A DNA stretch of 64,000 nucleotides, taken from NCBI GenBank assembly GCA_013350335.1, contig CM023532.1:35713708-35777707 (forward strand), read 5' to 3'. A program made the position numbers and the translations under genes. Positions 7,075 through 52,454 of this stretch are shown in pieces. The notes below the pieces were generated by a model. That model worked only from the letters and a program-made list of their open reading frames with translations. It had not been told where the DNA came from and searched no databases. This DNA comes from Chimonanthus salicifolius. Its lineage: Eukaryota > Streptophyta > Magnoliopsida > Laurales > Calycanthaceae. The number at the start of each line of letters is the position of its first letter. Within the stretch, counting starts at the first letter, position 1.

Positions 7075-7558
7075 ATGGCGATGGAGTCAAAACCGAGCAC
7101 CCAACAAGAGAATCTTACCATCCTTGTGGAAAGAAATCCGCCAGAATCACGCTTATCTGAGTTGGGTATCAAATCATGGCCCAAGTAAGCAGTCCTTTAC
7201 CCTGTTTTTTTTTTTTTTTTCTCAATTACCCTGTTTTGAACCCTCATTACTTGCAAACTCAACTGGGTTTTTTCACACTTTCCGGTTTCCCAATCATCAA
7301 CAAGTGGTCAATACTAATATTTGCTGTTATTTGGTCAGGTGGGGGTGTCCCCCAGGAAAGTTCCCTCTCAAATTCGATGCTGAAGAGACATGTTACCTCC
7401 TCAAAGGGAAAGTGAAGGCCTACACCAAAGGCTCTTCTGACTTCGTCGAATTTGGCGCGGGAGATCTTGTTGTCATTCCTAAAGGACTGAGTTGCACTTG
7501 GGATGTTTCAGTAGCCGTTGACAAGCACTATAAGTTCGATTCTCCCTCTTCTTCCTAG
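7075..7558 (+). CDS. Small single-domain cupin protein (DUF861/Cupin_3, RmlC-like)
   Basis: Two exons, 7075-7184 and 7339-7558, with a 154-bp GT-AG intron; together 330 nt, 109 residues. The start is ATGGCGATGG after a TTC-rich leader; an in-frame second ATG follows two codons later. Exon 1 gives the conserved N-terminal block ERNPPESRLSELGIKSWPK. The intron splits the codon before WGCPPGKFPLKFDAEETCYL. The rest is a single beta-barrel cupin: YLLKGKVKAYT, then FGAGDLVVIPKGLSCTWDV and a closing VDKHYKFD. Length and motifs fit the short plant Cupin_3 family related to ureidoglycine aminohydrolase domains. Family members are mostly uncharacterised and the metal-ligand set is incomplete, so no reaction is assigned. 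There is no obvious organelle signal. AATAAA at 7658-7663 is a plausible poly(A) signal. The gene looks intact. Confidence 0.9.
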
Positions 7559-14627: not shown

Positions 14628-15129
14628 TAGGGGGTGAAAAATTCACCCGGGCCGAGATTTCGGTCGATATGCAAATATCGGCCGATAAATTTCTCTCACC
14701 TCTTTTATGTGTTTTTTTTTTAAATATCAGTATTTTTTATTATTTTACTTTTTCTGAATTAAAAAATAAATAAATAATCCAACAAAAAGCTGATTTTTTT
14801 TTTAAAAAAAATTGAAAACGATAATATCGGCCAATATCTGGGCCGACATTGGTCCGATATGGGCCGAGAAATCAACTCGGGCCCACCACCGTTTTGGTTT
14901 TTTTTTTTTAAAAAAAGGCCGATATTATGAATATCGGCCGAGATATCAACTCGAGCCCACCACCGTTTTGAACTTTTTTTTTAAAAAAGGCCGATATTAT
15001 GAATATCGGACCGATATATCTCGCCGATATATTGGCCGAGAACTATTGCGTACGGCCGATACAATCCGTATATGATAAGGATCTGAAAATCGTATCATAT
15101 CGGCCGATACGCCGATGTCTTCGCCCCTT
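14628..15129. mobile_element. hAT-like element, TATCGGCCGATA family (502 bp)
   Basis: The left end TAGGGGGTGAAAAATTC and right end (other strand) AAGGGGCGAAGACATCGG are imperfect inverted repeats. Flanking 8-mers are ATCTCAAC (14620-14627) and ATCTCAGC (15130-15137), 7 of 8 matching. The interior has about ten TATCGGCCGATA-type palindromes, with an internally repeated GGGCCCACCACCGTTTT segment. Open frames across it are by-products of the repeats. Confidence 0.7.
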
Positions 15130-15139
15130 ATCTCAGCAA

Positions 15140-17258
15140 GTGCATGAACAAATTAACAATGCAAGCTCCGAGTCAGTGCATCTGACCCTAATATTGGCCA
15201 AATCCCAATGGAGATCAAATGGACCCAATACGAAGCCACACGTGTAGGATGCATGCTTGAGGCGTGACCCACCATGGACGATCCAACTTGAATAAATTAA
15301 TCCCAGCCAAGGTTGGGAATTCCTAATGTCCTAAGTCCATTAACATTGACATTGGGATAATGCAGTAACAACACCGACCTTAGTTATTTAGGAATTAATT
15401 AGGAGTTCTGGTTTACTTACGAGTTTTTGAATTTTGAATTTCAAACCATGTGTAATGGTTAGTTTAGGAAAGGGATGAAGGGTCGGCTCATCCTTTGTAT
15501 CGTTCGGTTTTTTTTTTCTTCTTTTTAAAGGTTGTAATCTACAGAATTAAGGGAGATAATTATGAAATAAAATATTTGGTTTTTATATAAAAAATTCATT
15601 GAAGACTTACACAACTAAGGTTGCAGCCGAGGCGTCTCGAGGACAAACAGAAAATTCTCTCTTCAAGAGCCAGGTAATCCACACCTCTTTTTAGTGTTTT
15701 GGATTGATTGGGTCCAATTCCGTGTTAATTAAACCCGTGAACTCAGCGTGATCGCTGATGGTTTAATTAATTGAGTTATATTAACTCATCATAAAAACCC
15801 AGATACACCTTGAGTCTGAACTTGTGGGAGTGTTTGATTTCTAAAATCTGTTTGGACTTAAATCAGTTATGTGGGGCTATGGCTGAATTTTGAGGATTAA
15901 ATCCAGAGTTAATGTGGGTTGTGGCAGACTTAAACATTAAAAGGCCAGTTTATCTTTTAATACTGTTGGAAATATTGTGAACTCAGGAACTGTGAACTCG
16001 TTGTGTGTGGGATTTGAGATTGAAATTTGTGACCAATTTAAGTGGTTTAAAACTATTTTAAAATCTGATTTGGAATTTTTTTTTAAACCTAAGTCACATA
16101 CAGTTTGGTGAATACATACAGACCATCCAATTAGTGGGCCATTAATGTCTACAACTCTACAATGTGATAATTTGTATGGAAAGTGCATGGGTAGTAAATT
16201 TGGATCTTTAATTGGTATTCAAAACTAAGTTTTGAAAATTGGAGGATTATTGTAGTCCTTTCGGTTTTTAACTAAAACCCATTAGTTTATTTCTCAAAAC
16301 AACTTAAATAATTTTATTTAAGAGATTGGATACAAATTAAGTTGGGTGTGTTTTGATGAAAAAAAAACCTATCAGATTTGAAGTAATTGAAGTTGTGGAA
16401 GGTTTTTTTTATAAAAGTAATCAGATTTTTGAAAACCCATTCGCTTAGTGTTTTGAATTAATTGATTCAATTAATCTCTATTACTTAAGTAAGTTGGGTT
16501 TTACTGTTTAAGACTCGCAGGTTGCATTAAACCCGTGTTGGTTCTTACTAAACTTCCACGACGACAGATTGAATGGGGTATTATATCCTACCCACATGAC
16601 TGATATGACTACCAAATCATAATAAAATCAGTGTGATGTTTTTCAAATAGTGCATACTCCATCTTATGGTGTATACTACTCCAATTAATTTGAAAATTGA
16701 TTGAATGATTTGAATCGATGAAGAGTTGGAGCTTATCCATCAAGAGATAAGAGACCCAAAAACAGAAAGTTACTGGTGTGCAAGACCAGCGAATCCAGAG
16801 TCCAAAAAAAGCAGAAAACTTCAAATTAGGAAGAAAAAAGGGAAAGAAATCTTTATATAATTTTATGTAGATTATTATATTTTTTTTGGCTTTTTAGCAA
16901 GTTTTCCTCAGACCCTAATTGTATTTTGTCTCCATTGTTTGTGTGCCAGTTTCCCTCTAAATAATTCCTCTCGCCATCGGAATTGGATTGCCCAGTGTTT
17001 GGATCTTTGGATGCTTCAGGTACACATGATTTGTTCATTATACTGATGGAATATGTAATTTTTTTTGTTTGTAAAATAAGATAATTTGAATTTCTTTTCA
17101 ATGTATTTATCTTGAAGGAGAAAGGTTCTCTTTCTGAAGAAAGTTCATAAAACCATCTGGCATTTTGATGTTGGATGGAAGTAAAAGTGGAGATCTTTTA
17201 TTATATTTAATATTCATTCATTAAGAGATCTATTTCTTCAAGAAAATCAATTTTGCAA

Positions 17259-17320
<62 letters not shown>

Positions 17321-18127
17321 GGTTTGATCTATGATTCCAACTGTTGTGAAATTTGGACTTGTGTCAGGCCATGGTAATCGATTGTTTGAATTAAAAATTT
17401 TATTTCCATTGAAAATGAACAAAACATTGTCTATGCAAGCAGAGAAAAATCTCTCAATTTTCCTCATTAAGTGGAAATGAATTCATTGTCAAAAGAGGAA
17501 AATGCCATATCTTTCGTGTTCTTTGCCTAGAGCCCCTTTATATAAGTGAAGGAAAAAAATCTTATTTTTTATCCTTTTCTTTTTTATCAATTGAGAGGTG
17601 TCTAGATTTCTTAGAACACACCACTAATTCTTGAGACATATGCAAACCTTCTAACCCACATAAATTAGATAACTTTATGGAGAGTGACCCTTTGGAATAG
17701 AGTAGGAATCAAACTCAGAATTCCTACTTTCTGAGGGTTCTTTCGAGTTCCTAATCATGACTCTAACCTTTTAGCTATGTTTGGATGAGGGGAGCGTAAG
17801 GGTAATGGGGTTACCCCTCATTACCCTTGTTTATAACCAAGAGGTAAGGGTAAAAGTTCAAATTTTTCTCTCTCCTTTTTCACTTTCACAGAGATTTTCA
17901 TATTATCTTAAATAACCCCTAGTCAAAGGTAATCCGAATAATCACACGTAGCCTTTGTGTTTCAAAGGCCATGTGAAGATAGAAAAAGGGACTTTTACTC
18001 CTCTGTTTTCCATCAAAACAGGTTGAGATTTTTTTATTTTAATATTATTGCTGACATCGCATGTATACAGGGGGGGCTGTACTGTTTTCAATTGGTAGAA
18101 GAGAGGTGAATTACAAAAATATTCATT
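15140..18127. other. Intergenic, no gene supported
   Basis: Contains an (AT)n microsatellite at 17262-17318 and a SINE-like piece at about 17580-17775 (minus strand). A minus-strand frame at 16853-17101 has an unusual polar composition but no clear gene structure. A GTTTGGATGAGGGG...GGTAATCC stretch at 17783-17945 resembles the MITE at 21276. Confidence 0.4.
17262..17318. repeat. (AT)n microsatellite
   Basis: About 28 uninterrupted AT dinucleotides. Confidence 0.9.
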
Positions 18128-18448
18128 ATGTCCTTCAAACCTAATATTATGGTAGCAAAGTGGAGTACAAAAAGAGGAGCAGGAGGGCAAATTGAAAAAG
18201 AATATGTTGTTAGAACAGGGAAAAAATATGAAAATCCTTACTTTGTGAATGAGCGCAGCAAGTACAGAAGATTTCAAAACAAACGGAAACGCCACACTCT
18301 ACTTCCTAAAAGTTACAGTGTGAAATCAACATCAGATCTTGGAAAAAAGGTTGATGGAGTGGGCCAGGCCCAAGTGAGAGGTCAGATCGAAGAAGACCTC
18401 AAGAGCCCAGATACGACGGGCCCAGATATGATATCATTGGAGGAGTGA
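18128..18448 (+). CDS. Unrecognised small basic protein, divergent copy
   Basis: A single open frame of 106 codons from ATGTCCTTCAAACC. It is clearly homologous to the frames at 24800 and 30936: shared positions include the start F-x-P, A-x-W-[ST]-TKRG-x-GGQ, EKEYV-x-RTG, ENPYFV, then a Lys/Arg-rich block and LPKSYS-x-xST. After residue 85 it lacks the acidic WDWPEDE repeats of its relatives and ends with SPDTTGPDMISLEE. The protein is strongly basic in the middle and has no signal peptide or membrane segment. The family was not recognised. It could be a transposon-borne accessory or gag-like protein, or a lineage-specific gene. Conservation of reading frame against the other two copies, despite sequence drift, argues that it is or recently was coding. 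Confidence 0.55.
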   Translation: MSFKPNIMVAKWSTKRGAGGQIEKEYVVRTGKKYENPYFVNERSKYRRFQNKRKRHTLLPKSYSVKSTSDLGKKVDGVGQAQVRGQIEEDLKSPDTTGPDMISLEE

Positions 18449-18449
18449 C

Positions 18450-21275
18450 GGCATTTTGCGGCCCCCATTGATGAAATCTCCTTCTGAAGTTATCATCATG
18501 CATTCGGGCATATTATTGTCAATTTGGATTTGTGCTCTGGTCTAGTTACTATATGGGCCTTGGCCCAGTTAGTGGATTGTCGTTACTGTCGACTGTAGTC
18601 ATGGGCTTAAGGCTCACTTTTATATATATATTATGCATTTGTCAATATAATAATTACTTTTTCTGATTGAGTATCGACGTTATGTAAATATCCGGGTCCA
18701 GCCCAGTGAGTGAGTTGGAGACTAATTTCAGTAACAGGTCCAGCCATCTCTTTATCCATGTTCATACTCACTTAAATCAGGCCTGGGTATAGGACCACAT
18801 TCTAAAAATCCAAACTGGGCTTTTATTTGTATTTTTATATTTACGTCGACGATGGCTAATTATGAATGTAAATTGGATTGACTATATTATTTTTTAATAT
18901 AAAAGAAATAGTTTTGAGAGTCTGACAAATAAACTTTAGCCGTCACTTCGATTAATGGATAATTTTTAGTCTGCTCTTTTTATGGAGAAGTTATAGAATA
19001 GTATCTAAAAAAGTGGAAATATTGATCCATGCATGGTTTGATTGATAATTAGGATTTGAATTCAATTGCTAAATTATAGGTTTGTTTGATAATTAGGATT
19101 AGGATTTGGATTCAATTGCTTAATTATTTTTAGGTCTCTGTAGTTCTATACTCATAGACATGGTTGAAGAGGTGCGTATATGCATATGGGTTTTGGCTTT
19201 CAACATCATTGGATGTGTTAGAGGTTGTAATTTTTTACCCGATTTAAAAAAGAATTTAAATGGAGTCAACTTGAAATGGATTATGATCGGGTTGGATATA
19301 AGGGCCCCGAACTCAAATTTGATCTGAATTGAATTAAAAATTAATATTTCAATCATTTATTTATTTTTTACCTGTTAATTTTTGTCTATACATCTCATCA
19401 AATTAAAAAATCATATTATGTTGCCTCAATTTGCTCATGTGAAGCCTGTCTCTCATTTGTTGAACTTTAAGAGAGATTATCTATATCTTTTCTTCCCCAT
19501 TTGTGTTATAATAGGATTGAAACTTGTGTCAGATTTAATAACTCAGTTCAATTCATGTCAAAATTTATTGAACTCGACTCAATCTGACCTGAATTGATGA
19601 TCCAAATTATTCAACCTGACCTTATTCGAATTTTGACCCAAGTCAACTCGAGCGTTGTTTTGTAACTTGGTGCAGTTAGTTACGTCAGGTCGAATTGGAT
19701 CGAGTTGATTTTAAATTTCTCAACCCTATTCAACTCGAATTTTATATGGATTTTTATTTTCCTAATTCGACCCAACCTTAAATATACAAATACAAAATCC
19801 AAATCTAGTGATTTCTCGGAGTCATGTGATTTGTGGGAGTCGTTTGGGTAGAGGAGTGGCTTTAGGAAGAGAAACGTCCGTGATCGTGGCTGAGGGCAAT
19901 GGAGAGAAACGATCGGGATAGAAGAGGAAACGTGGGTTGTTGCCGTTGAGCGAGAGAGGGATGTGGGTTGGGTCGGGTAATCGGGTTTTTTTTTATCTTA
20001 TTTCATTTTCTTTTATTTTTTCATCTGTTCAATTATAATTTAAGTCATTTGTTTAATTATTATTGTTTAAATTCATAAATTTCTAGGATAATTTAGTGTT
20101 TGAGTGGAGTGAGTTGAGGCCGAGTAGAGCAAGTGAGAGAGGTTCGAGTGGCAATCAGAGTTGGGTCGAGGAAAGTTTTATTTATTTAATTATTATTTCC
20201 ATTAATTTTTATTTTTAATGTGTAAAATATGTTTTTTAAAGAGATAATTTAAGATGATCATTGAATAAATGTTTGATCTTTTATTCATTAAATGTCTGTG
20301 ATTTAATTCCATATTGGTAAACAAAAAGATTAACTTATAAAAAAAATCTAAAAATAGAAAAAGAATTTTTAGATGATTTGTGTCTTATCATATTAGAATT
20401 AAAATAGATAAAATTATATAAAAACTACTAAAAATAGAAAAACATATTTTAAAATAAGATTTTGTAAGTTAAAAAGATTTGATCTATTTTTATCACATTA
20501 TTATCTGACATAGAGAGACTTTATAAAAAAAAATGACTAAAAATAAGAAAATAGATTTTATAATTAAATTTAGTGACTTTGAAGAAGTTGACATATATTT
20601 TTACATTAATATCTAAAAATAGAAAATTTTAGACAGACATGTATTAAAGTCACTATTTCACTAGATTTCATACCCTCACCACATGGAAGAAGATTGGACG
20701 GTCATTTGGCTTGAATAAATTCGATTAAGATTCACTATATATAATTTTCTACAATTAAAAAAAGATATTTACAACATTTTTTATATTAAATGCCATTAAT
20801 TAAACATGTTAAAGATTTTGTTTAGATGCTTGAATTGTACTTTTAGGAAAATTCTAAAAAACTGTTTGAATGTAATTTCCTAAAAAATGACTAATAAAAC
20901 TTTGTAGAGCCTTTTTATAAACTTATTAGAGCATAAAATAATTATTCAATAAGCTTTTGATCTAAAATTATATTAGTTGTTTAAAATTAGATTTTATAAT
21001 TTGAAATTATAATATGATTCTTAAGGTTACACTTAATGTATAAAATTAAACTCGAGAAAAAAATTAGTGGTATCAATTAGATTAATAGTTAATCATTAGA
21101 ATGATTTACTTAAAAGGGTTAGAATGAGCCAAGAACCTGCCTTAGAAATCAAGGGTCTTAAAGTTAAATTCCTATTCTATCTTAAAGTTCACTCCTCGTT
21201 GAATTTGAATTCGACTCCCACTCCATTTTAAAGTACACTCCTAATAAAATTATTTACTGTGTTATTAGAATGTCT
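18450..21275. other. Intergenic, very AT-rich
   Basis: No gene supported. 19560-19800 has scattered GACTCGACTTGA-type sequence resembling the interior of the hAT-like family at 11692, without definable ends. 20190-21270 is low-complexity AT-rich DNA in which I see no structure. Confidence 0.45.
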
Positions 21276-21838
21276 AAGGTTGTATTTGGATGAGAGGTAA
21301 ATTTTATAGGGGTTATCAGAAGTTACTCTTGAGCAGGGGTTACCCTTATCTTGTTTGGTATTTATAGGGGGAAAGTAAAACTTATCTTGAGAGAAAAAAA
21401 TATTGTTTGGTAACTATTAGTTGGAGTTCATTTCCAAAAAAAGGGTTAGTCGGAGTAACATGACATATTAACAATTTTATGAGAATTAATAATTTTTATT
21501 AAATTAAAGATAATATAAAAAATAAAAATAAAATTTTATGAAATATTTTAAATAATATTCATCAATTAAAAAATATTTTTGCACCATAGATGTAAAGAGG
21601 GGTAAAGATGGACAAATGTTTCATGAAAACCTCCATGCTCTACAGGGTTTTCAAAACGGAAATGAAAACAATAAAAATTTAAATTTTTATCTTCACCCCT
21701 TTATTACCAAACTAGGGTAACTAGAGGTTACTCCAACTTTCTTTTTTCTGAGGTCTGGAGGTGTCCAGGTATCACACCTTACAGGAGATTACTCCAATTA
21801 CCCCTTTACCCTTATCCAAAAGCAGCTCAAGAGACTCG
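21276..21838. mobile_element. Probable MITE with TTTGGAT(G/A)AGGGTAA ends
   Basis: The left end GTTGTATTTGGATGAGAGG and the right end on the other strand (CTGCTTTTGGATAAGGG) are imperfect inverted repeats followed by GGTTACCCC/GGGGTAAT blocks. A shorter relative is at about 17783-17945. No target duplication was found. Confidence 0.45.
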
Positions 21839-22193
21839 AATACTTTGGTCATAGAATCATTTTGAAGTTTATTATTGTATTAAATAAATATAAAACTGGA
21901 TTTGTTAAAATAGAAGTTTTACCCACCGCCTCTCTTGAAATATCAAAGACGCTTTTTTTAATACAGATTTAGATTCATCAATTAATGTAGGGTATGCGTA
22001 AAGATGACGATGAAAATGCTTGAAATTTTAAGATGAAATCTGAAGAAACCCATTTATTTTATTTTTATTTTTCTTATTTGTAGCACTCTTTTTTAATTTA
22101 TTTTATAAGATTAAAGTTTTTCTATAAATATCCAATGTATTCAAGATTTCAAGAAGATTTGATGAATGTCATCCGTCCCTGCTGCCTCTTCGT

Positions 22194-23375
22194 CAGGGGT
22201 CAAAATATCAGTTGATACTGTGCGTATCGGCCATACCGAAAAAATTTCGGCCGATATGATCGAATTTCTGACCAATAATTCGGTCATGATATCGGCCGAA
22301 TTTAAAAATTCGGTTGTTTGTTATTTTTTTTTTAAAAAAGTCCTTTTTTTTTTAGAAATATCGGACGAGAAAGAATGGAAAGAGAAAAAAGAAAATATGG
22401 AGAAAAGATTGAAGAAAAAAAATCGCTACACTTTTCACAGCTTTTCTTACTCTTTTTTTTCTTCTTCGTTGATGGGAAAAATACAGAGAGCGGCGGCGGT
22501 ATCTAGGGTTTAATAGAGAGAGTGAAAGAGAAGAAGGGTTTTTAAGTGAAAACCCATCTTTATCTTTACGAAAAGAAGTAAAGAGCTCACTTGGAAGCTC
22601 ATGTGTGTACTCTTATATTTTATCAAAAAGTTATTTTTAATGTGAAAGTAATAATTTTTTTATTTTAAATACAATATTTACTTATGTTCAAAGTAAAAAG
22701 TATAATGTTTTCTTTTATTTATCTTATTGTAATAATTTAATATTATGTTTACCATTGTCATTATTATTAGAAGGTATTATTTATTTTTATTATATCAATT
22801 TAACATAATTAACTATAGCTCATAATTTTATGTAATAATTTTATTTATCTAATTATTATTAATAAAAATAAAATCTATTTTCTCAAATGAAAGAAAATAT
22901 TATAGTATTATGTATGACATTTATGTGGTTATTAGTTCAAGTGATTAGGACTCCATTAGTTTCATTTTCTAATATTTTTTCTACATTATTACGTAATTTT
23001 CAATCATTTTATTATATATATTTTTTTATTTCTATAATTCATAACTTAAAATAACACTTATTGACTAAGAAAATAAATTATGAAATTATTTCTACAAATT
23101 TTCCTCATTTATCTATTTTTCCTTGTAATTTTCATCGTTTTATTACTAATTATATAATTTCCTGATATCATACCTTCAAAAATATATTAGAAGTTGTAAA
23201 TACCCGATATTTTATGAAAAAACTATATATTCAATAAGTCCATAATTATCTCTATTTATTGTAATTTTTTTAAATTTTTTAATTAAAAAAAGCAAGAGAG
23301 AGAACGAGTGCAGACGATATATCAGCCAAACAAGGATATCGGCCGATATCTAGGTACGCCCGATTTTTCTACCCG
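22194..23375. mobile_element. Long hAT-like non-autonomous element (about 1.2 kb)
   Basis: It begins CAGGGGTCAAAATATCAG, nearly identical to the terminus at 26199, and ends (other strand) CGGGTAGAAAAATCGG. TATCGGCCGATA-type palindromes crowd both ends (22210-22350 and 23310-23360), while the middle 900 bp is AT-rich filler with no transposase. Flanking 8-mers CTCTTCGT and CTATTTGT agree at only 6 positions, so the right end is tentative. Confidence 0.5.
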
Positions 23376-23631
23376 CTATTTGTGCAGCCACGGTCCCTAA
23401 ATGCCTAAATGGGTATAGGGATTAAAACCCGGTCCGCCAGTTCGTTGTCCTTTCCCAAAAGGAAACTTCCATTCCGAGTTAAGCCAATCCCGACTATCTG
23501 TGTGCAGACTCTCTCTCCCCGGCCGCAGCAGACTATCTCTCTCCCCGCTCGCCGACTCTTGTTGAGTATAAGATGGGTGTTTCTTTCTTTCCTCTTCTAA
23601 ACAGGCAGCACCTACCACTGTTCCCACCCGT

Positions 23632-24799
23632 ATTCTTCTTCTTTCTTCTCTACTTTCTCTTTTTCTCTTTTCCTCTTTTTCTCTCTCTTCTCCTCTGCCT
23701 GAGTGTTGCCCAGACCATTGCTACAACCAGACTGTTGCTGCAGCCCCTCTATTAGTTTGCAGCCACGGTTTACTTCCTTATTACCAGTCTAGCAGAGTCT
23801 CCACTGTCTTCAGGTTCTCAAGAGAAACCCAGATCCCCAAGCTTCTCTGCTGCAACTGTTGCTGCCTCTGTTTACTGCCGTCCAACCAGATCTACTTGCA
23901 GGTCGCCTCCCAATCTGTTGCTGCCTTCGTTTGGTTCCCTACAGCGACCCCAAACCATCAGCTTGCACCCTCCTTCTCCACCGTCTTTTACCCCAATTTC
24001 TCAGCCTGTCCTGTCAACCAGCAGCCACCACGCCTTCACCCACAGTCAAGCGCCCAAGTTCCAGATCCCTACTGCCTCACCCCCATCGCTGCAAGCCATT
24101 CAGAACTCAGCTCTTCATCGTCGACGCATGCCAAGCCAAGAGGTTCACACCTCCACTGTCCAGGTCTCTGTTTTTTTTTCTTTTTCGACAGAGACAATAC
24201 GACCCTGCCTCCTTTGCTGATTAACCCCTTTGATTCCCCCTTTGGACCCTCACCACCTTTAACCAAGCCCACATCACTCTGACCCATTTTACATCAGCCG
24301 TCAACCGTGGGAACCCATCATTCACCCATTGTCTCTTCCATTCAGCCACTGCGGATTCAGGCCTCCTACTAGTCGTCTGATCATCAAGCCTAATTGAAGC
24401 TCGCCTTGGAGACGGCGCGACACATTCGATCCTGCTCCGCGCTGCCTCACACCGCCTCCCACTCTCGCTGGTTCTGATTTCCAGTTTCCAAAACCGTCCC
24501 TTTCCCCTTTGACCTTTCTTTCATATTTTATTAATTACTCTAAGACACATTGACCCTGGATTGACCGTTCCCTTTACCACTACATTCCCATTTAATTTCA
24601 TTTATTTATCAATTCGAACGAGTCACACGTCTCTTTTAAGGTACTTTTCAAAAACTAAAGTGATGCAGGTCCCAGTCGGATAGGCAAAGGTGAGATTTTG
24701 TTATCTATGATCAATTAATTTATGATTAATATTGGGTTGATCTCTTTATTTTAGGTCATTAACGATTGGTATCCGAGATTGGAAAAGAAGATCATTATT
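23632..24799 (+). other. C/T-rich leader upstream of the small-protein gene (unit A)
   Basis: About 1.15 kb with C/T-rich sequence and proline-rich shadow frames. Near its 3' end is a 65-bp GT-AG interval (24690-24754), then TGGTATCCGAGATTGG at 24767-24782. The latter resembles the initiator-tRNA-Met primer binding site of LTR retrotransposons (12 of 16 positions by eye). The stretch is therefore either a spliced 5' UTR or an LTR-like end. No second LTR was seen downstream within the unit. Confidence 0.4.
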
Positions 24800-25288
24800 A
24801 TGGGTTTTAGACCTGATGTGAGGATTGCAGCATGGACTACAAAGAGAGGATCAGGTGGTCAAAAGGAGAAAGAATATGTTACAAGAACAGGTCGAATGTC
24901 GGAAAATCCCTATTTTGTAAAGCAGTGCAATAGGTTTAAGAGATTCCGAAAGAAATACAAACATAGCAAAGTTCTTCCCAAAAGTTACAGTTTGCAATCA
25001 ACAATCAATTCTGCACGGAGAGTTGATGGATTAATTCAGAATGAGTTGGGAGGTAAGGGGAATGGCCAATGCAACCAAGCCCTCACTAGCCCAGATGGAA
25101 GAGACCCAGATACGGCGACATTGGCCTGGGACTGGCCGGAAGATGAGCGTGAGAAGGGTGAACCAGATACGACGTCATTACTCTGGGACTGGCCGGAAGA
25201 TGAGTTTGAGGAGGGTGAACTAGATACGGCGACATTGCCCCGGGACTGGCCGGAAGATGAGCGTGAGGAGGGTGAAATCTCACCGTGA
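24800..25288 (+). CDS. Unrecognised basic protein with three acidic 19-residue repeats (unit A)
   Basis: Open frame of 162 residues from ATGGGTTTTAG; the frame is also open upstream but has no ATG there. Residues 1-85 are basic: AAWTTKRGSGGQ, EKEYVTRTGRMSENPYFV, then an FKRFRKKYKH cluster and LPKSYSLQSTINSA. The C-terminal half switches to an acidic tandem repeat of 19 residues with core DWPEDE, three copies, each starting [PL]DT and ending GE. The last copy is followed by ISP and stop. No signal peptide or membrane segment. Homologous to the frames at 18128 and 30936. I do not recognise the family and assign no function. The charge-polarised architecture would suit nucleic-acid or protein binding, which is inference only. 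Confidence 0.6.
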   Translation: MGFRPDVRIAAWTTKRGSGGQKEKEYVTRTGRMSENPYFVKQCNRFKRFRKKYKHSKVLPKSYSLQSTINSARRVDGLIQNELGGKGNGQCNQALTSPDGRDPDTATLAWDWPEDEREKGEPDTTSLLWDWPEDEFEEGELDTATLPRDWPEDEREEGEISP

Positions 25289-25289
25289 A

Positions 25290-26190
25290 GTTTTTTTTAT
25301 TTTGTCAATTTGAGGGTTTTTTTTTTTCGTTTTTACCGGTCTTATCATACTTTGAATCTTGTATGGTTCACATGTATGATAGAAGAAAGATGCAATTTAC
25401 TGTATCATCTTGTACATTGCTGTTTACCTTACTGTTTGGTCACTCAAGTTTTCATAGAAACTCTCATGTATATTTTTGTATATACGGTTTTATCTCTGTT
25501 GTTGAATAGGGAGAAAGAGTTTGAATAAGATTGTGACTCTTAATTTAATTAGTACTCTTCTCTTTGTTCTCTCCCTTTTCCATATAAATTTCTGGCTCTT
25601 GTTGGGATAGCCTCTTAGGTTTATTAGTTTTAATTCTAAAAATAACTCTACTGACCTTTCAAAACGTAACTCCAATTGACCCAATGTTGACCTATCTTAC
25701 ACTCCAATTTGGCTCAAATTTGACTTTTATTGCATTTAAATTTAACTCACAACTAATTTACCCAAATTTCACTTTGACTCGACTTGATCCAAGCTTAGAC
25801 TTGTCAATTGAGTGTTACGATTAATCTCAAATCAATGCAAGAAAACAAGTAAAGCAATCATCTAAGAGACTATGTGGTTCGGCCAAAGGTCTATGTCTAC
25901 ATGCAACAAGGGAAAAATTACTAATTTGAGGAGGAGACACAATTTCACTCACTTCCCACTTTTCTCTCACAATATATATAGCTTTCCTATAATAAGGGAG
26001 ATATAAGTCGGGTCAAGCCAAATCAAATAATCAACAAATCTCTACTTTAGCGAGATTTACAAGCCACCTCTCAAGCGAGATTTACAAGCCACCTCTCAGA
26101 TATCTCCACCTTAACATGAAAATCTAACACAAACAAACAAAGTGAACAAACCACACTCCAAGATGTCTAATATCTCTAACTTGAACTTCT
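25290..26190. other. 3' flank and spacer of unit A
   Basis: T-rich 3' flank of the small-protein gene, then AT-rich spacer with direct counterparts at 31540-32470. A short tandem repeat of GAGATTTACAAGCCACCTCTCA occurs at about 26050-26098 in this unit only. Confidence 0.5.
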
Positions 26191-26198
26191 AATAGATG

Positions 26199-26529
26199 CA
26201 GGGGTCAAAAATTCAGCTGATATTGTGCATATCGGCAGATATATATTGGGATTTCGAACACCGATATCTCTTGGCTCGTATCAGCCAGAGAGAAAAGTTT
26301 GGTCGAATATCGACCGGTTTTTATTTTTTATTTAAAAAAAAAATATCGGCTTGGGCCCAGTCGATATCTCGGCCGATATTTATATTTTTAATTATTTTTA
26401 AAAACAGCCTTTTTATTTTTTTAATATTTTTTTTTAAAAAAACCACTGAGATTTTCAAAAAAAAAAATGAGGAGAGAGAAAAAATTCGGCCGAGACCAAA
26501 ATTCGGCTGGGCCGAATTTTCGACCCCTG
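26199..26529. mobile_element. hAT-like MITE, TATCGGCCGATA family (331 bp), intact ends
   Basis: The best-preserved family member. The ends are CAGGGGTCAAAAATTC and, on the other strand, CAGGGGTCGAAAATTC, a 16-bp inverted repeat with one mismatch. The target duplication AATAGATG is perfect (26191-26198 and 26530-26537). The sister unit at about 32470-32490 has the uninterrupted site, so the element was gained after the duplication (or cleanly lost from the sister). There is no open frame of note. Confidence 0.85.
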
Positions 26530-26539
26530 AATAGATGAT

Positions 26540-27870
26540 TAATTAAGGGCTGTAAATGGAGCTGGATCCGGCCTGACTAGGTATTATCTGGCCCAGCCCA
26601 ATATTCTTACTGGATTAGCTGCGGTCCAGCCCAGTAACACAGGATCTAATATGACTTGGATGTGGCCTGGCCTGATAGACTTAACGGGTCGTCTGCTGCC
26701 CATTAAAGGTCCAATTGTCTGCTTGACCCATCTAATGGCCCTAGAGTGGATGATGCTATCATTATCATTCACAGTGAAATAAATGGTTTAAGATTTACTT
26801 GTGTTTTCTATTTTTACAATTTTTTGGTGTACATTAGACATTGAAACTTTGAGTAGTAGGTACTGAGATTTAAATCCAATTTTATACCAGTATTCACTAT
26901 TTTTTCTGTTTTTTATTTTTTATTTTAATTTGACAACTTTTTTTTAAAAAAATAGGCAAGTTGGTCATACATTAGACTATATTGACCAAAATGCTTACAA
27001 AGACCGTCTCAACCATCACTATGAGATGTAAATCCCTAAATTCAAGTCTGCTTTAATCTGAGGATTTTAGGCCATCACTTGAACTACAGAAATTTTTACT
27101 TGAGTCCAATTGGGTATTTAAATTTTATTTCACCACCATCACCATCATCTTCGTCATCAAAACCATTAATTCTATTCATCTATATAGTTAACCATTTAAA
27201 TTCTTGTCTGACTTTGGGTGTGACAGAATAAAATTTAAATCTGTTAATAGTTCATCCATGATAGAACAAGAATTATTCTCATTTTTAATGGAAATAATAT
27301 TTTTTTCAAAGGGTTTAAAGGGATTAAAAAACAAAACTCAAAGTTATTTTAATCAATTTTTTTGAATAATTCTTTCTACAGACATGAATCGCCCACTTGA
27401 ACCACTTTTCACCCTATGGAAATCACCTTTAGCTAAGGGTGAAACCATCTTTTACCTGAATATTTTCACTTGGGTGCACAATTGTCTGATCAAAATCGAG
27501 TGGCAATTCACAGCATATTATCCCCCAATCCAAGCATATATCCAAAGTAGGATGGTTGTTGCATGATTTCATTTGCTTTGCATTCATTTGAAATAATCAT
27601 CACTATAATTAGAATGAAATCATTAGCATACCATTCCATCAAAATGTGCAAAAAATACTTCTTTGATCCAATATAAATATCTAATACAGCAGAAAAAACC
27701 TACTAAATTATTCAGATCATCTTTCCCTCTACCAACCAAAAAAGGAATAAGAAGGAAAAAAAAAATCAAATCCAAATCGCAATTATGCAGAGACCGATAT
27801 GCCGATTAGATGTGGCAGTGACTAGCATCTGCATGTCCAATAATGAAGTTACAGCTACTGAACCAAATAA
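26540..27870. other. Unit A spacer downstream of the CTPA pseudogene
   Basis: AT-rich spacer shared with 32490-33950 in unit B. An AAGGGCTGTAAATGGAGC...GGCCCTA stretch (26547-26743) looks like another hAT-type MITE, present in both units; its target duplication was not found. Compared with unit B, about 177 bp are absent near 27385. Confidence 0.45.
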
Positions 27871-28788
27871 TCATCTTGAGAAGAGCTTAACATCGTTGAG
27901 ACTACCAGACGTCGGATCTTTGAGACAACTGCAGAATCCGTCTTCATCCAATGGAAATGATGTTGGTAGAGGATGGTCTGGGATCATACCAACCTTGTGC
28001 ATGGCAAAGCAATGAAGAGCAGGATTAGTTGCACATCAAGCTCTACTGTTTTGATGATGAATAAGACCGGTAACATTTGATTCGTTAAAAGGGCAAATGC
28101 ACATTCATGGTTTAGAACTAAAATTAATTCAACAAACATGATAGGATTGATTGAAAAGGATGAAAACAGGTAGATATTTTTTTATAATTTTGCCCTTTTT
28201 TCCTGGAATGATGAGAACAAGTTGATATTTCCAAAGACACAACACAGGTAATGGACGTACAGAAATCAGTCATGCAACCTAATTCAAGTAGCAGGAAAAC
28301 AAAGCACAAAGTTGTGCAGTCATCTTGTAAGAAGATGCTCAAAAAAGCAGTGACAAACCTTCTCAATGTCAGTGTGAGCAGGAGTCTCATAACGGGCCAC
28401 TGTAACAGCCAAACCAGAGCCATCTGATAGCTCAAAAACTGACTGGATCTTCCTGCACATGGGGCATTGTAAACACCATTATGGCTAAAACATGCAATAC
28501 AATCTGGTTCCAAGGATTGACTCACCACTGGAACTGGTGCAACTTGAGTAAGAAGCAATTCTTTCGAGTCAGTGACTTGGTTCAGTCGTTGTTAATGCCA
28601 GTACCATGTTGCGTTGTCCAAAATAACTCGTCACCAACCGGCAACAGACATAATGAGCTAAAGCCACTTCAATAAGAAATAACTGTTACCCTTTTCCAAA
28701 CGTGCGCTCTCCAAACACCATTGCTCGCTTGTTGTCTTTCAGGGCTCCTGCTTAAGATCTCACTTGCACTAGCGGTTCCTCTATTTAC
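27871..28788 (-). pseudogene. 3'-end pseudogene of CTPA (last three exons, unit A)
   Basis: Copies of the final three CTPA exons are at 28788-28690, 28452-28359 and 27993-27871. The first has an extra base in the catalytic-serine segment (99 nt against 98), shifting the frame, and its splice acceptor has changed from AG to TG. The middle exon is open and identical in protein to its functional sister. In the last exon a small deletion shifts the frame after CLKDPT, extending the tail until a TGA at 27873. Exons 1-10 are absent, because the duplication breakpoint lies within intron 10. It cannot make a working protease. Confidence 0.85.
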
Positions 28789-28789
28789 C

Positions 28790-29792
28790 AATAGGAAACT
28801 CGGAACAAATATGATTACTTTTTGCTTTTATCAAAAATAGATTTCCCCTTTGCAGGTATAGTAAAGTCTCTATAGTATTCTATAAAGTTATAACTTGTCT
28901 AAAATAGTATCAACAACCGATACAGATTGTATCACTTTAGAAAGAAAATAGCCTCTTTTATGTAATAATCTCCCTAATGTAATATTTACATGTAGTCCCA
29001 ACCATATTCTTTATAGAGTTTTACTGTAATAAGCTCCTCGGAGGTAAAACAAAAACTAGTGACCATATCCGAATTAACAACAAGATATCTGGAGTGGTAA
29101 TGAAAGGTGCAGTACTGACAGTGCCAACATAACAAGTAACAAGTCTCCTGACCCAGCAAATCATGGAGTCTATGCATACATGAACAAGCAGAACAAGATT
29201 TAAATTAGAACTTAGAGACTCGATAATGATCATACTGATGATTCTGCCGAATTAGTCTAAATTGATTTTTGTCCCATTAGCATATAAATTTTCTTAACAA
29301 TGTTCAAACTAACTACACTCAGCTTTAATCATCCAAGTCTCTTGACTTAGTAGGTCACCTTGTCGAGCAAGTTTGCCAAGCTTGCTCACACTCAACTGAA
29401 TTACTTGGTTAAATTACAGTTCAGAAGTACTCTCTAATCCAATTTTTAAAGTAAGATACCATTACAATTCAGAATCCATAAAACTTGAAGAACCAAAGGT
29501 CTATAATTATTGAGGGAATTTTCAGCTTTTTATGAAAAAAAAAATTAGTAGATTTTGCTAGATTCCCTCTTACACCTTACACCCCTATACCCTAGAAGCA
29601 AATAGGTAGATCAAATATTGAATATGTAAGCATCTCACTTCTCTAGTCTCTCCCTCTTTATTGTTTTTTTTAGAGTTGGGGTATAAGATAACGTATCCTT
29701 TGAGAGGCCAATTGGCCCTTTCTATTGTGTAATGCCCATTTAGGGTTCACTTTAGCCTATGCTTGAATATGGGGCCTATCAAGAATCAACTT
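28790..29792. other. Duplicated CTPA intron-10 sequence (unit A)
   Basis: Non-coding sequence equivalent to 35365-36190 in unit B, ending at the duplication junction TATGGGGCCTATCAAG followed directly by the C/T-rich leader of unit B. Confidence 0.6.
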
Positions 29793-30935
29793 AATCTTCT
29801 TCTTTCTTCTCGACTCTCTTTTCCTCTTTTTCTCTCTCTCTTCTCCTCTGCCAGAGTGTTGTCCAGGCCATTACTACAGCCAGACTGTTGCTGCAGCTCC
29901 TCTATTCGTTTGCAGCCACGGTTTACTTCCTTATTACCAGTCTAGCAGAGTCTCCACTGTCTTCAGGTTCCCAAGAGAAACCCAGATCCCCAAGCTTCTG
30001 TGCTGCAACGGTTGCTGCCTCTGTTTACTGCCGTCCAACAAGATCTACTTGCAGGTCGCCTCCTAATCTGTTGCTGCCTTCTTTGGTTCCCTACAGCGAC
30101 CCCAAACCATCAGCCTGCACCCTCCTTCTCCACCGTCTTTTACCCCAACTTCTCAGCCTGACCCGTCAACCAGCAGCCACCACGCCTTCACCCACAGTCA
30201 AGCGCCCAAGTTAAAGATCCCTACTGCCTCACCCCCATCGCTGCAAGCCATTCAGAACCCAGCTCTCCATCCTCAACGCCAGCCAAGCCAAGAGGTTCAC
30301 ACCTCCACTGTCCAGGTCTCTGTTTTTTATTTTTTCGACAGAGACAACACGACCCTGCCTCCTTGGCTGATTAACCCCTTTGATTCCCCTTTTGGACCCT
30401 CACCACCTTTAACCAAGCCCACATCACTCTGACCCACTTTACATCAGCCGTCAACCGTGGGACCCCATCATTCACCAATTGTCTCTTCCATTCAGCCACT
30501 GCGGATTCAGGCCTCCTACTAGTCATCTGATCATCAAGCCTAATTGAAGCTCGCCTTGGAGACGGCCCGACGCATTCGATCCTGATCCGCGCTGCCTCAC
30601 TCTCGCTGGTTCTGATTTCCAGTTTCCAGAACCGTCCCTTTCCCCTTTGACCTTTCTTTCATATTTTATTAATTACTCTAAGACCCATTGACCCTTGATT
30701 GACCGTTCCCTTTACCACTAAATTCCATTTAATTTCATTTATTTATCATTTCGAACGAGTCACACGTCTCTTTAAAGATACTTTTCAAAAATAAAGTGAT
30801 GCAGGTCCCAGTCGGATAGGCAAAGGTGAGATTTTGTTATCTATGATCAATTAATTTATGATTAATGTTGTGTTGATCTCTTTATTTTAGGTCATTAACG
30901 ATTGGTATCCGAGATTGGGAAAGAAGATCACGATT
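29793..30935 (+). other. C/T-rich leader upstream of the small-protein gene (unit B)
   Basis: Same organisation as in unit A: C/T-rich start, proline-rich shadow frames, a 65-bp GT-AG interval at 30826-30890, then TGGTATCCGAGATTGG at 30903-30918. Conservation of the GT and AG in both copies is compatible with a real 5' UTR intron. Confidence 0.4.
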
Positions 30936-31538
30936 ATGGGTTTTAGACCTGATGTGAGGATTGCAGCATGGACTACAAAGAGAGGATCAGGTGGTCAAAT
31001 GGAGAAAGAATATGTTACAAGAACAGGTGGAATGTCGGAAAATCCCTATTTTGTAAAGCAGTGCAACAGGTTTAAGAGATTCCGTAAGAAATACAAACAT
31101 AGGAAAGTTCTTCCCAAAAGTTACAGTTTGATATCAACGATCAATTCTGCAAGGACTGTTGATGGATTAATTCAGAATGAGTTGGAAGGTAAGGGGAATG
31201 GCCAATGCAACCAAGCCCTCGCTAGCCCAGATGGAAGAGACCCAGATACGACGACATCGCCCCGGGACTGGCCGGAAGATGAGCGTGAGAAGGGTGAACC
31301 AGATAAGACGTCATTGCTCTGGGACTGGCCGGAAGATGAGCTTGAGGCGGGTGAACTAGATACGGCGACATTGCCCCGGGACTGGCCTGAAGATGAGCGT
31401 GAGAAGGGTGAACCAGATACGACGTCATTACTCTGGGACTGGCCAGACGATGAGCTTGAGGAGGGTGAACTAGATACGGCGACATTGCCCCGGGACTGGC
31501 CGGAAGATGAGCGTGAGGAGGGTGAAATCTCACCGTGA
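30936..31538 (+). CDS. Unrecognised basic protein with five acidic 19-residue repeats (unit B)
   Basis: Open frame of 200 residues from ATGGGTTTTAG. The first 85 residues match the unit A protein with a few substitutions (for example GGM for GRM after RTG, and ISTINSARTV). The acidic tail has five DWPEDE/DWPDDE repeats against three in unit A; the length difference between the two frames is exactly 114 bp, that is two 57-bp repeats. Alternate repeats begin PDT and LDT, suggesting that a two-repeat block was added or lost as a unit. No family recognised. It is the longest of the three homologues in the window. Confidence 0.6.
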   Translation: MGFRPDVRIAAWTTKRGSGGQMEKEYVTRTGGMSENPYFVKQCNRFKRFRKKYKHRKVLPKSYSLISTINSARTVDGLIQNELEGKGNGQCNQALASPDGRDPDTTTSPRDWPEDEREKGEPDKTSLLWDWPEDELEAGELDTATLPRDWPEDEREKGEPDTTSLLWDWPDDELEEGELDTATLPRDWPEDEREEGEISP

Positions 31539-31539
31539 A

Positions 31540-33950
31540 GTTTTTTTTATTTTGTCAATTTGAGGGTTTTTTTTTTTCGTTTTACCGGTCTTATCATACT
31601 TTGAATCTTGTATGGTTCACATGTATGATAAGAAGAAAGATGCAATTTACTGTATCATCTTGTACATCGCTGTTTGGTCACTCAAGTTTTCATAGAAAAT
31701 TCAAATTTTCTATGAAAATTGTCTCTCATGTATATTTTTGTATATATGGTTGTCTCCCCTGTTGAATAGTGAGAAAGAGTTTGAATAGTATCGCGACTCT
31801 TAATATAATTAGGACTTCTGTTTGTTTTCCTGTGATTTTTATCTTAAGGTTTTCCATATATTGTTGGGATAGCTTTTGGGTTTATTAGTTTTAATTCTAA
31901 AAATAATTCTACTGCACATTTCAACGTACCTCCAATTGACCCAATGTTGACCTATCTCCCATATCCGGTACTGATGTACACTCCAATTTGGCCCAAATTT
32001 GACCAGCATTGCATTTAAATTTAAATCACAATCTAATTTACCCAAATTTCACTTTGACTCGACTTGATCCAAACTTAGACTTGTGAATTGAGTGTTGCGA
32101 TTAATCTCAAATCAATGCAAGAAAACAAGTAAAACAATCTATCCAATAAACTATGTGGTTCGGCCAAAGGTCTGTCTGCATACAATAAAGGGGAAAATCA
32201 CTAATTTGAGGAGAAGACACAATTTCACTCACTTGCTCTCTCCCACTCTCACAATATAGATAGCTTTCCTATAATAAAGGAGATATAAGTGGGGTCAAGC
32301 CAAATCGAATAATCAACAAATCTCTACTTTATCGAAATTTACAAGCCACCTCTCAGATATCTCCACTTTAAGATTGAAAATCTCACTCAAGCAAACAATA
32401 ACAAAGTAAACAAAACCATGTTGTCATCAAATGCACTCCAAGGTGTCTAATATCTCTAACTTGAGCTTCTAAGGGATGATTTATTAAGGGCTGTAAATGG
32501 AGCTGGATCTGGCCTGACTCGGTATGATCGGCCAGCCCAATATTCTTACTGGATTAGCTGCGGTCCAGCCCAGTAACACAGGATCTAATATGACTTGAAC
32601 TGGCCCGGTCTGATAAACTTAATGGGTCACCTGCGGCCCATTAAAGGTCCAATTGTCTGTTAGACCCATCTAATGGCCCTAGAGTGGATGATGCTATCTT
32701 TATCATTCACAGTGAAACAAATGATTTAAAATTTAGTTGTGTTTTCTATTTTTACAATTTTTTGGTGTACATTAGACATTGAAACTTTGACTAGTAGGTA
32801 CCGAGATTTAAATGCAATTTTATACCAGATTACCAGTATTCACTGTTTTTTTTTTTTAATTTGACTATTTTTTTAAAAAAAAAAATCATTAGACTGCATT
32901 GACCAAAATGCTGACAAAGACCGTCTCAACCATCACTATGAGATGTAAATCCCTAAATTCAAGTCTACTTTAATCTGAGGATGTTAGGCCATCACTCGAA
33001 CTATAGATATTTTGACTCGAGTCCAATTAGGTATTTAAATTTTATTTCACCACCATCAAAACCATTTAAATTCTTGTCTGACTTTGGGTGTGACAGAATA
33101 AAATTTAAATCTGTTCATAGTTCATCCATGATAGAACAAGAATTATTCTCATTTTTAATGGAAATAATATTTTTTTCAAAGGGTTTAAAGGGATTAAAAA
33201 ACAAAATTCAAAGTTATTTTTAACCAACTTTTTTTGAATAATTCTTTCTACAGACATGATCTGTTTGGTGGCTAATTTCGAATGAAAACAATACCTTCTT
33301 TTTGAAGAGAATGAAAAGAGAAAAAAAAAAAAATCAAGAATCAAAAAGTAATTTTCAATGATTCTATGTACCAAGGTGTGACAAAAATGCCTTCCCAGAA
33401 GGAGAAAGACCAAAAACAACTGTTGGTTGGTGATGGAATCGCCCACTTGAACCACTTTTCACCCTGTGGAAATCACCTTTAGCTAAGGGTGAAACCATCT
33501 TTTACCTGAATATTTTCACTTGGGTGCACAATTGTCTGATCAAAATCGAGTGGCAATTCACAGCATATTATCCCCCAATCCAAGCATGTATCCAAAGTAA
33601 GATGGTTGTTGCATGATTTCATTTGCTTTACATTCATTTGAAATAATCATCACTATAATTAGAATGAAATCATTAGCATACCATTCCATAAAAATGTGCA
33701 AAAAATACTTCTTTGATCCAATCTAAATATCTAATACAGCAGAAAAAACCTACTAAATTATTCAGATCATCTTTCCCTCTACCAACCAAAAAGGAATAAG
33801 AAGGACAAAAAAAATCAAATCCAAATTGCAATTATGCAGAGACCGATATGCCAATTAGAAGTGGCAGTGACTAGCATCTGCATGTCCAATAATGAAGTTA
33901 CAGCTACTGAACCAAATAATCATCTTGAGAAGAGCTTAACATCGTTGAGA
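31540..33950. other. 3' flank and spacer of unit B
   Basis: Counterpart of 25290-27870. Notable: a short perfect hairpin at 31686-31722 that unit A lacks, and an intact empty site for the 26199 MITE at about 32470-32490. No gene seen. Confidence 0.5.
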
Positions 33951-47708
<13,758 letters not shown>

Positions 47709-48396: not shown

Positions 48397-49774
48397 GAGC
48401 CAAGACCATTGAATCTGAATTATTTAATTGAAAAAAAATTAGGGTAGCATCTGGCAATAGTTTATATTCGATCAATTTTGAATCCATTTCTAGTTCGAGT
48501 TTGGAAAACAATCTTCAAGTCATTATTACTTGTTTATTAAACATGTTAGTCTATCATGTTAGTCTATCCGAATCTATTGTTAGTTCTGATCACAAAATTT
48601 TAAACATGTATTCATCTAAATTGCTCGATTTTGGTTCGGATAATCGGATCAGTCAATCAAATTTTTCTAAGTCTAATTTAAGATAATTTGGCAATAGGTC
48701 AGTCAGGGTCCGATCAATTTCGAGTTTGGGCCAACAACTCTCAGTCAATTACTTATTTATTTATTAAATAGGTTAGTCAATTTGGATCACAAAACTTTAA
48801 ATAAATACCTCATTTAAAGTGTTCAAGTTCAATTCAGATAATTAGGTCTGATTAAAGTTTTGCTAGGCCTAATTAGAGATTTTCTAATAGACAAAAAAGA
48901 TTGATCATTAGATTGTTTTTATTATTAATTTTTATTTTCATTAAATTATTAAATAAATGTTTACAATGACCATAAGAAAATAATTAAACAGTAAGTAAGC
49001 GATATCTTACAAGTTTAACTTTAAAATGAGTGTACCATTTCATATTTTCATCTCAACAATTAAACAGCTTGATACTCGCTTCAAACTTATTCAAATTCAT
49101 TTATCCATTTGTTAAAGCTAAATCTATTTAAATCCATTTATCAAGGAAAATCTAAATTCACTTTTTATTAAAAAATACTCTTAGATCTCAACATTTCCTT
49201 ATAATTGTTAATAAACTCTAATATCAACCATCCACAATAAGTAATCACCATTAAATTAAAAATATATAATAATGTAAATTCAATAGAAACTGGATTATTG
49301 AGTAACTGATTATAAGATGATTATCTCTCATGATGGCATATTGAGATTAAATAATCTCTTAATAAAAAATAAACTTCATATATAAATTTGCTCAATCTGA
49401 TCACAATTTATAATAAACTTATTACATTAAATCTGACTCAAAAATGCTGGTAGAGCTAAAATTGTGTTGGGCCTAAATTATGAGTATTAAGAAGTGTAAA
49501 TAAATCCATATATGTTAAAATGATAATAGAGCTAAAAATTTGCAGACTGATAAGAGAAACAGAGAATAATAGACGGAAATTAGAATTGTGAAACAGGAAG
49601 ATAGAAAAAAAATATAAATGTATAAGTATAAATAAAAAAATTAATGTAGAATTATTAAGAATATAAATGTATAAGTATTAAGAAGTATAAATAAAAAAAT
49701 ATAAATGTATAAGTATAAATAAAAAAATGTATAAACTGTGAAAACAGGGAAACTAGAAAAATAAAAAATAAAAT

Positions 49775-49798
49775 GCGGTGAGCGTGGATCGAACACGC

Positions 49799-49841
<43 letters not shown>

Positions 49842-49847
49842 CCCGCG
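49775..49847 (-). tRNA. tRNA-Phe (GAA)
   Basis: 73 nt on the minus strand beginning GCGGGGATAGCTCAGTTGGG, anticodon GAA in the loop CTGAAGA, T-arm GCGTGTTCGATCCACGC, acceptor closed by CACCGC plus discriminator A. No intron and no encoded CCA, as expected for a plant nuclear gene. The downstream minus strand has TTTTATTTTTTA, suitable for Pol III termination. A box TAGCTCAGTTGG and B box GTTCGATCC are intact. It is identical to the second copy at 52382. Confidence 0.97.
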
Positions 49848-50352
49848 AGATAAACGATTGTCTATATTTTATTTATTAACTTAGTTTCGGAAAAGCCGTA
49901 CATGTTATGAATCCTTTAAATGTGTATCTATTTTGAAGAAAATTATGTGCCATGGCCCTACTTAGGTCAATGTGGCTATATCATTCTATTTTTTGGTCCT
50001 ATAACACTATTAAATCATAGTCATTTATCCAATACATCTATTTTAATGACTAACTGATTAAAGTTAAAAAAATTCAAGTGGATATTCTTTAATTTTTATT
50101 TTTTTTCATATTAGTTTCCTTGTTTACAAAATTTTTAAACACTTTTCAAAGTTTTAGAATATTTTTTAAGATGTCATGAAATTTCAACTTTCAAAAGCTC
50201 TTTACTCATCTCATAAATTGATCTCATCAACTCAGCTCTTTTAGACCTCATTGGATTTGACTCTAAAATGCTGTCTAATGTTTAATAAAACCTTTGGGTG
50301 GAAATTCTGCCTAATCTAAGGTCTCTACGTGGAATTCATGTGATAATTCTAT

Positions 50353-50430
50353 TTAGGGGTTTAAATAGAAAAATAGGAGAGAGAAATTTTGCAGCCTCGA
50401 TATCGGTCGATATCAAGATTTTAATCCCTG
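50353..50430. mobile_element. Small decayed hAT-like insertion in tRNA copy 1
   Basis: TAGGGGTTTAAATAG at the left and (other strand) CAGGGATTAAAATC at the right enclose a GATATCGGTCGATATC core. The matching place in copy 2 (about 52917) lacks it. Target repeats are too diverged to call. Confidence 0.5.
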
Positions 50431-50756
50431 ATTAATTAATAGGGTTATAAAACATAAACACATGCACATCTAAATTTCATAAAGTTTCATGTGCAAAAAT
50501 TTCTAAAGTTAGTTGATTAATTATGTATTGTAGATTTGGAGGAGGTTCACTACATATCATTTCATTTCCACATTCCAGATTTTGATTGATCAAACACATA
50601 CTTGCAGACTTTGATTATGTTTCACTCTCTTGACGCCACTTATGATATCATGTAAAATGGAATGAGTTTCATAATATTTTTGTTATTAATTTGTGATCTC
50701 ATATATGTGTTATATATATATATATATATATATATAAACCAAATTGTTGTTAGGAC

Positions 50757-52029: not shown

Positions 52030-52375
52030 CATATAAGCTAAAATGATAATAGAGCCAAAAAAATAGCAGACTGATAAGAGAAATAGAGAATAAAACAAAT
52101 AAAATAGCAAAAAAAAAATTAAGCCAGAAAATAGTAGACTGATAAGAGAAATAGAGAATAAAACAAAGAAAATAGGGGAAAAAAAACAAAGAAAGTAAAA
52201 AAAAAAAACGTAAATAGAGAATAGAGAATAAAACAAGCCAAAAAAAATAGCAGATAAGAGAAATAGAGAATAAAACGAATAAATAGAAAAATAAAAGATC
52301 AAAGAAAATAGCTAAAAAAAATAATGCCAGAAAATAGTGGACTGATAAGAGAAATAGAGAATAAAACAAAAAATA
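52030..52375. repeat. Tandem AGACTGATAAGAGAAATAGAGAATAAAAC-type repeat
   Basis: About five imperfect copies of a unit with core GAGAAATAGAGAATAAAAC separated by A-rich linkers. Copy 1 of the duplication has only one recognisable unit (about 49548-49572). Confidence 0.7.
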
Positions 52376-52381
52376 TATAAA

Positions 52382-52406
52382 TGCGGTGAGCGTGGATCGA
52401 ACACGC

Positions 52407-52449
<43 letters not shown>

Positions 52450-52454
52450 CCCGC
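52382..52454 (-). tRNA. tRNA-Phe (GAA), second copy
   Basis: Identical over all 73 nt to the gene at 49775, including anticodon GAA and both internal promoter boxes, although the flanking DNA of the duplication has diverged. The downstream minus strand begins TTTATATATTTTTTG, giving a terminator. Likely functional. Confidence 0.97.

Follow-up and report, generated by a model that had tools for sequence, protein, structure and literature searches.

The Arabidopsis gene QQS and the Pooideae gene TaFROG are both reported as taxonomically restricted plant genes whose partners are transcription factors, NF-YC4 for QQS and an NAC protein for TaFROG (PMC10084940, PMC6330549, PMC6737021). Here we report on three small open reading frames (ORFs), designated copies A, B and C, in a stretch of 64,000 nucleotides from Chimonanthus salicifolius (GenBank assembly GCA_013350335.1, contig CM023532.1, positions 35,713,708 to 35,777,707; hereafter the window). 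The three are very likely a gene family, and within the scope of the searches made this family appears undescribed. For the locus as a whole we favour, with some reservation, a small lineage-restricted host gene family arranged as a local tandem array. Orphan gene families are a well-known kind, and we regard this one as real and constrained, with three genes, ordinary in kind and unusual in layout.

All three ORFs lie on the plus strand within 13.4 kb and contain no internal stop (Table 1). Their shared basic head is about 77 residues long, and the net charge over the first 76 residues is +14 in A, +15 in B and +13 in C. When the head of A was compared with the window by tblastn, it matched both B (E=9.5e-27) and C (E=3.6e-26) with 53% identity over 77 amino acids, and the motifs A-x-W-[ST]-TKRG-x-GGQ, ENPYFV and LPKSYS are conserved in 3/3 copies. 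An earlier note on this DNA, made from the letters without database searches, had proposed three homologous frames at 18128, 24800 and 30936 and had singled out these head motifs; the places, the strand, the stop-free frames and the tblastn matches bear out both proposals. The three frames are homologous but not three independent copies: B and C sit in a tandem duplication and therefore count as one pair, differing at 11 bases across their first 76 codons.

The note had also claimed that the frame of A is kept although its DNA has drifted, and had proposed comparing substitution rates among the copies. Ratios of nonsynonymous to synonymous substitution (dN/dS; Nei-Gojobori method, 77 head codons, 2000 bootstraps) were 0.310 for A and B (dS 1.02; bootstrap 95% interval 0.12-0.56) and 0.322 for A and C (0.13-0.58), with none of the 2000 bootstraps reaching 1 in either comparison, which indicates purifying selection. 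The ratio between B and C was 0.370 (interval 0.10-0.68), and a fraction of 0.0715 of the 2000 bootstraps was at or above 1. The heads of A and B keep 41/77 residues at 74/231 changed bases. In 2000 neutral simulations that started from B and ran to 74/231 differences, only 49 sequences were stop-free, two had a dN/dS of 0.32 or less and two kept at least 41 residues. Based on the A-B ratio and these simulations, the claim holds and the head is under constraint as a protein, or was so for a long time; present-day use of every copy does not follow from this constraint alone. The same results bear on the suggestion that the locus is non-coding, with a frame open by chance and a 57-bp array that is a minisatellite. 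The wide B-C interval and the failure to find a homologue would suit this suggestion, but the residues kept between A and B and the rarity of stop-free simulations speak against it, and we consider it very improbable.

Window self-comparison places B and C in two tandem units of a 6.2-6.4 kb duplication, with 90-99% identity outside gaps in most 150-column blocks; a few blocks score lower, and some gaps are large. Relative to this pair, A is an old paralogue, with a head dS of about 1. In the same comparison its DNA resembles that of B and C from 3 bases 5' of the ATG up to 18331 (versus B) or 18358 (versus C), and a weaker colinear stretch follows at 18393-18440, at a score reached by 2/500 shuffles against B and 16/500 against C. 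Alignments of A further out in the flanks were not used, shuffles having reached their scores in 17/500, 161/500 and 121/500 cases. An old duplication separated A from the ancestor of B and C, as the head dS of about 1 and dN/dS of about 0.3 show, and a later tandem duplication produced B and C, in the two units now seen.

Behind the head, the earlier note had recognised an acidic tail with no, three and five repeats in A, B and C, respectively. The counts stand for B and C, which carry 3.0 and 5.0 copies of a 57-bp unit, with tail net charges of -19 and -28. The pattern.D......DWP.DE.E.GE is common to 8/8 repeats, with D-W-P-x-D-E in each. The repeats are of two types in rough alternation, and C exceeds B by one 114-bp pair of units, a difference that may have arisen by slippage or unequal crossing-over. 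A, however, is probably not simply tail-less. The DNA 3' of its TGA reads, in the frame of A, RHFAAPIDEISF and then a stop, colinear with the tail end EREEGEISP and stop of B and C. The best match in the window to the 22-nt tail terminus of B, outside B and C, is 16/22 at 18469; the runner-up is 14/22, a score found at nine places among the 12 listed. A global alignment of the post-stop stretch with the last repeat has a score reached by 10/2000 shuffles. This short stretch suggests that the ancestor of A, B and C probably had at least one tail repeat, which an early stop would have removed in A, leaving a degraded in-frame remnant.

No relatives of A, B or C were found in profile and protein databases, the latter including many angiosperms; protein records close to the species' own genome may be left out of this search, small genes are often unannotated, and candidates must share short words with the query (only 32 in one search). 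Pfam listed 0 families at E<=10 for the three proteins, the 19-residue repeats included, HMMER filters dropping most matches above about 0.1. The profile search proposed in the note thus gave no family match, and its description of an orphan family with this layout is supported. Alternatively, the ORFs could be what is left, in part or in decay, of a bigger known gene, its remaining exons having disappeared or escaped recognition. The frame of B stays open for 15 codons 5' of its ATG, as far as a candidate intron acceptor (177 amino acids), and the tail of A has decayed, both as this would predict. Against it, A has an in-frame TGA 7 codons 5' of its ATG (open frame 112 amino acids), the similarity of A to B and C begins at the ATG, no profile match was found in the ORFs or in the three frames of 23600-24850, and protein searches with A and B found no further copy in the genome. 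We consider such a descent improbable.

The note had further suggested that the preceding sequence could be a retroelement primer site and that the ORFs may encode a gag-like protein of a non-autonomous element. For a long terminal repeat (LTR) element this would mean an LTR upstream, a primer site at 24767 and the ORF directly behind it. The head is indeed small and basic, about 350 bp separate B and C from an LTR-end-like piece 5' of them, and TGGTATC-GAG stands where a primer site would sit. We searched the species' own genome (852.6 Mb, 591 contigs) with the proteins of B (E<=1e-3) and A (E<=10), scoring five first-look candidates per search, and both searches returned only these three loci, which lie on the same strand of the window in a cluster of 13 kb. 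An LTR pair was not found around any copy: BLAST direct repeats (E<=1e-3) in 15000-22000 (A), 23400-29700 (B) and 29900-36300 (C) were the tail units only. The match at 24767 agrees with the initiator-tRNA primer site at 12/16 bases, which is near chance, since five sites on both strands of the window reach at least 12/16, including those of B and C, and one other reaches 13; the counterpart in A has 10/16. The LTR-like piece ends at 24449, about 320 bp ahead of this match, and Pfam gave no gag profile for A, B or C. With three clustered loci, no LTR pair found and a near-chance primer-site match, the ORFs do not resemble part of a dispersed element and can hardly be the gag of a mobile element; the gag-like protein is not supported, and we regard this proposal as very improbable and already largely refuted.

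What does remain of the proposed retroelement link is the 5' flank of B and C, which appears to contain old LTR-retroelement pieces; the ORFs themselves do not look like those of a gag-like element protein. The region 23631-24799 has 11 genome matches, two of which are B and C and nine partial. One piece of it aligns, up to an end in TCA, with a stretch elsewhere in the genome (C8), which then continues with AG, TGGTATCAGTAGCC and an ORF of 138 amino acids, and the sequence after the TCA end includes the primer-site-like TGGTATCAG. An 86-bp piece of the C8 stretch recurs 3.4 kb further on in the same direction, as an LTR would. Only its anatomy marks C8 as an LTR element, since its ORFs gave no Pfam match at E<=0.01. 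A second piece resembles sequence at C2, where the best Pfam match of the ORF is a copia gag, under the Pfam cut-off (22.5 versus 24.1 bits). In window self-comparison A has no similarity to this flank. The 3' flank of B contains dispersed repeats with at least 41 genome matches, including B and C, among the best 40 of 80 candidates scored, and pieces of the repeats at 25812-26151 are present at many sites genome-wide. At two further sites (G000:C7:30584677 and C483:345383) an LTR-end-like piece like that upstream of B and C is followed by coding sequence that we recognised by eye as leucine-rich repeat (LRR)-like; each is perhaps another LTR beside a piece of a host gene.

Scraps of retroelements commonly adjoin genes in plant genomes. 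The other option offered in the note, a captured host gene, is conceivable: the family would be a captured or exapted piece, a host ORF that an old LTR element carried along or provided with a new promoter, and expression of B and C would now depend on a promoter or leader of LTR origin. Two observations would fit such an event, namely the retroelement-like pieces at 23829-24054 and 24252-24449 and the LRR-like coding sequence behind the same LTR end at C7. That A carries the same head without such a flank, and that scraps of this kind are so common, argue against it, as would a candidate intron of 65 bp with GT..AG ends in the leaders of B and C, which, if real, speaks against retro-capture. 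The evidence for this intron is weak because B and C are duplicates, and a counterpart in A is doubtful. We consider capture unlikely; its re-promotion part overlaps with the host gene family favoured here, in which the promoter or leader of B and C may likewise derive partly from old LTR sequence.

What might such proteins do? Acidic, tryptophan-bearing activation domains exist as a kind. The basic head with its K/R-rich helix and the acidic tail with its regular tryptophans together suggest nuclear work. We speculate that the protein is nuclear, that the head attaches to nucleic acid or to some other acidic partner, and that the tail either recruits partners in numbers that scale with its repeats, like an acidic activation domain, or neutralises the head; a nuclear role with the head on nucleic acid and the tail on partners is a tentative proposal. 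Two AlphaFold models, both built from the same three sequences, contain a beta-hairpin (residues 7-16 and 22-31) and a basic helix (37-54/56), with a second helix (65-76) in the head model only, and the tail is unstructured in the model. The structure prediction called for in the earlier note thus yields a hairpin and helix in both models, but at low confidence and with no significant fold match. In the head model, residues 1-50 have block means of the predicted local distance difference test (pLDDT) of 73-83. A bolder and rather unlikely idea is that the hairpin and basic helix form a new nucleic-acid-binding module that is confined to a single plant lineage and carries an acidic W-repeat tail of tunable length; the array would then present the same head with no, medium and long effector tails, and A would compete with B and C.

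It should be noted that several points weigh against our overall explanation. Both models have low overall means (pLDDT 63.0 and 50.7), stem from the same three sequences and have no significant fold match, and the nuclear location and activation proposed above are deduced only from composition. The B-C comparison by itself is compatible with neutrality. A split between A and B as old as a dS of about 1 predicts orthologues in related plants, and none was found in the searches described above; the genes are known here from DNA sequence alone.

Each tandem unit also holds the 3' end of a minus-strand CtpA gene, and the orphan ORF and CtpA stand tail to tail. In unit 1 the minus-strand exons match Peptidase_S41, and their sequence also matches the photosystem II D1 protease whose structure is known (1fc6; E 5.9e-08); the gene appears to be present there as a 3' piece only. 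Elsewhere in the window lie a Cupin_3 domain protein at 7124-7555 (plus strand; Pfam E 4.6e-24), two tRNA-Phe genes at 49774-49846 and 52382-52454 (minus strand) within a further local duplication (about 48657-50722 and 51117-53395), and an LRR receptor-like kinase of the MDIS1-interacting type at 54287-58283 (minus strand; Pfam LRR and kinase). The top scores of this kinase are with long proteins of Kingdonia, Escallonia and Papaver, and among the 120 listed the highest identities (up to 65%) are with Magnolia and Asimina, a pattern that points to a magnoliid, or a plant close to the magnoliids, as the probable source.

Table 1. Positions in the window of copies A, B and C and of the features that surround them
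Feature	Position	Strand	Remark
Copy A ORF	18128-18448	+	106 aa; basic head, then short acidic end; early stop in presumed remnant tail
Degraded tail end of A (probable)	18449-18487	+	in frame 3' of the A stop
Copy B ORF	24800-25288	+	162 aa; basic head and 3 acidic repeats
Tail repeats of B	25106-25276	+	three 57-bp units (19 residues each)
Copy C ORF	30936-31538	+	200 aa; basic head and 5 acidic repeats
Tail repeats of C	31242-31526	+	five 57-bp units, alternating types, 114-bp higher-order period
Candidate 65-bp intron, 5' leader of B	24690-24754	+	GT..AG; same place and length in duplicate C
Candidate 65-bp intron, 5' leader of C	30826-30890	+	GT..AG; same place and length in duplicate B
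Piece 5' of B	23829-24054	+	genome match; like sequence upstream of copia-gag-like ORF at C2 (G000:C2)
LTR-end-like piece 5' of B	24252-24449 (BLAST part 24337-24449)	+	aligns to stretch at C8
Tandem unit 1	23631-29792		copy B and 3' piece of CtpA gene; window self-comparison
Tandem unit 2	29792-36191		copy C and 3' part of CtpA gene; window self-comparison
CtpA exons (photosystem II D1 processing protease gene)	28359-28448, 28750-28815	-	profile and sequence matches
PDZ exon, same CtpA kind	42281-42463	-	exon of a CtpA gene

With its old paralogue, its recent tandem pair and its tail of varying length, probably lost in one copy, this array is a compact test case for the origin of lineage-restricted proteins, and one that also tests the effect of a coding minisatellite on protein function. 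Compared with known systems, the 5' flank of B and C is like the gag and leader region of an LTR retrotransposon in holding LTR-end-like and copia-leader-like pieces, while the genes differ from such a gag in being three clustered loci with no LTR pair found and no gag profile. The tails of B and C resemble acidic, tryptophan-bearing activation domains in being unstructured in the model and strongly acidic, their W and L residues standing among D/E; this likeness is one of composition only, and the proteins with the 19-residue repeats match no Pfam family. Lastly, A, B and C are like QQS and TaFROG, as those genes are described in the work cited, in apparently lacking detectable relatives outside a lineage, a comparison by description and not by sequence; unlike them, they form a three-gene tandem array whose proteins combine a charged head and tail with a coding tandem repeat of variable number.

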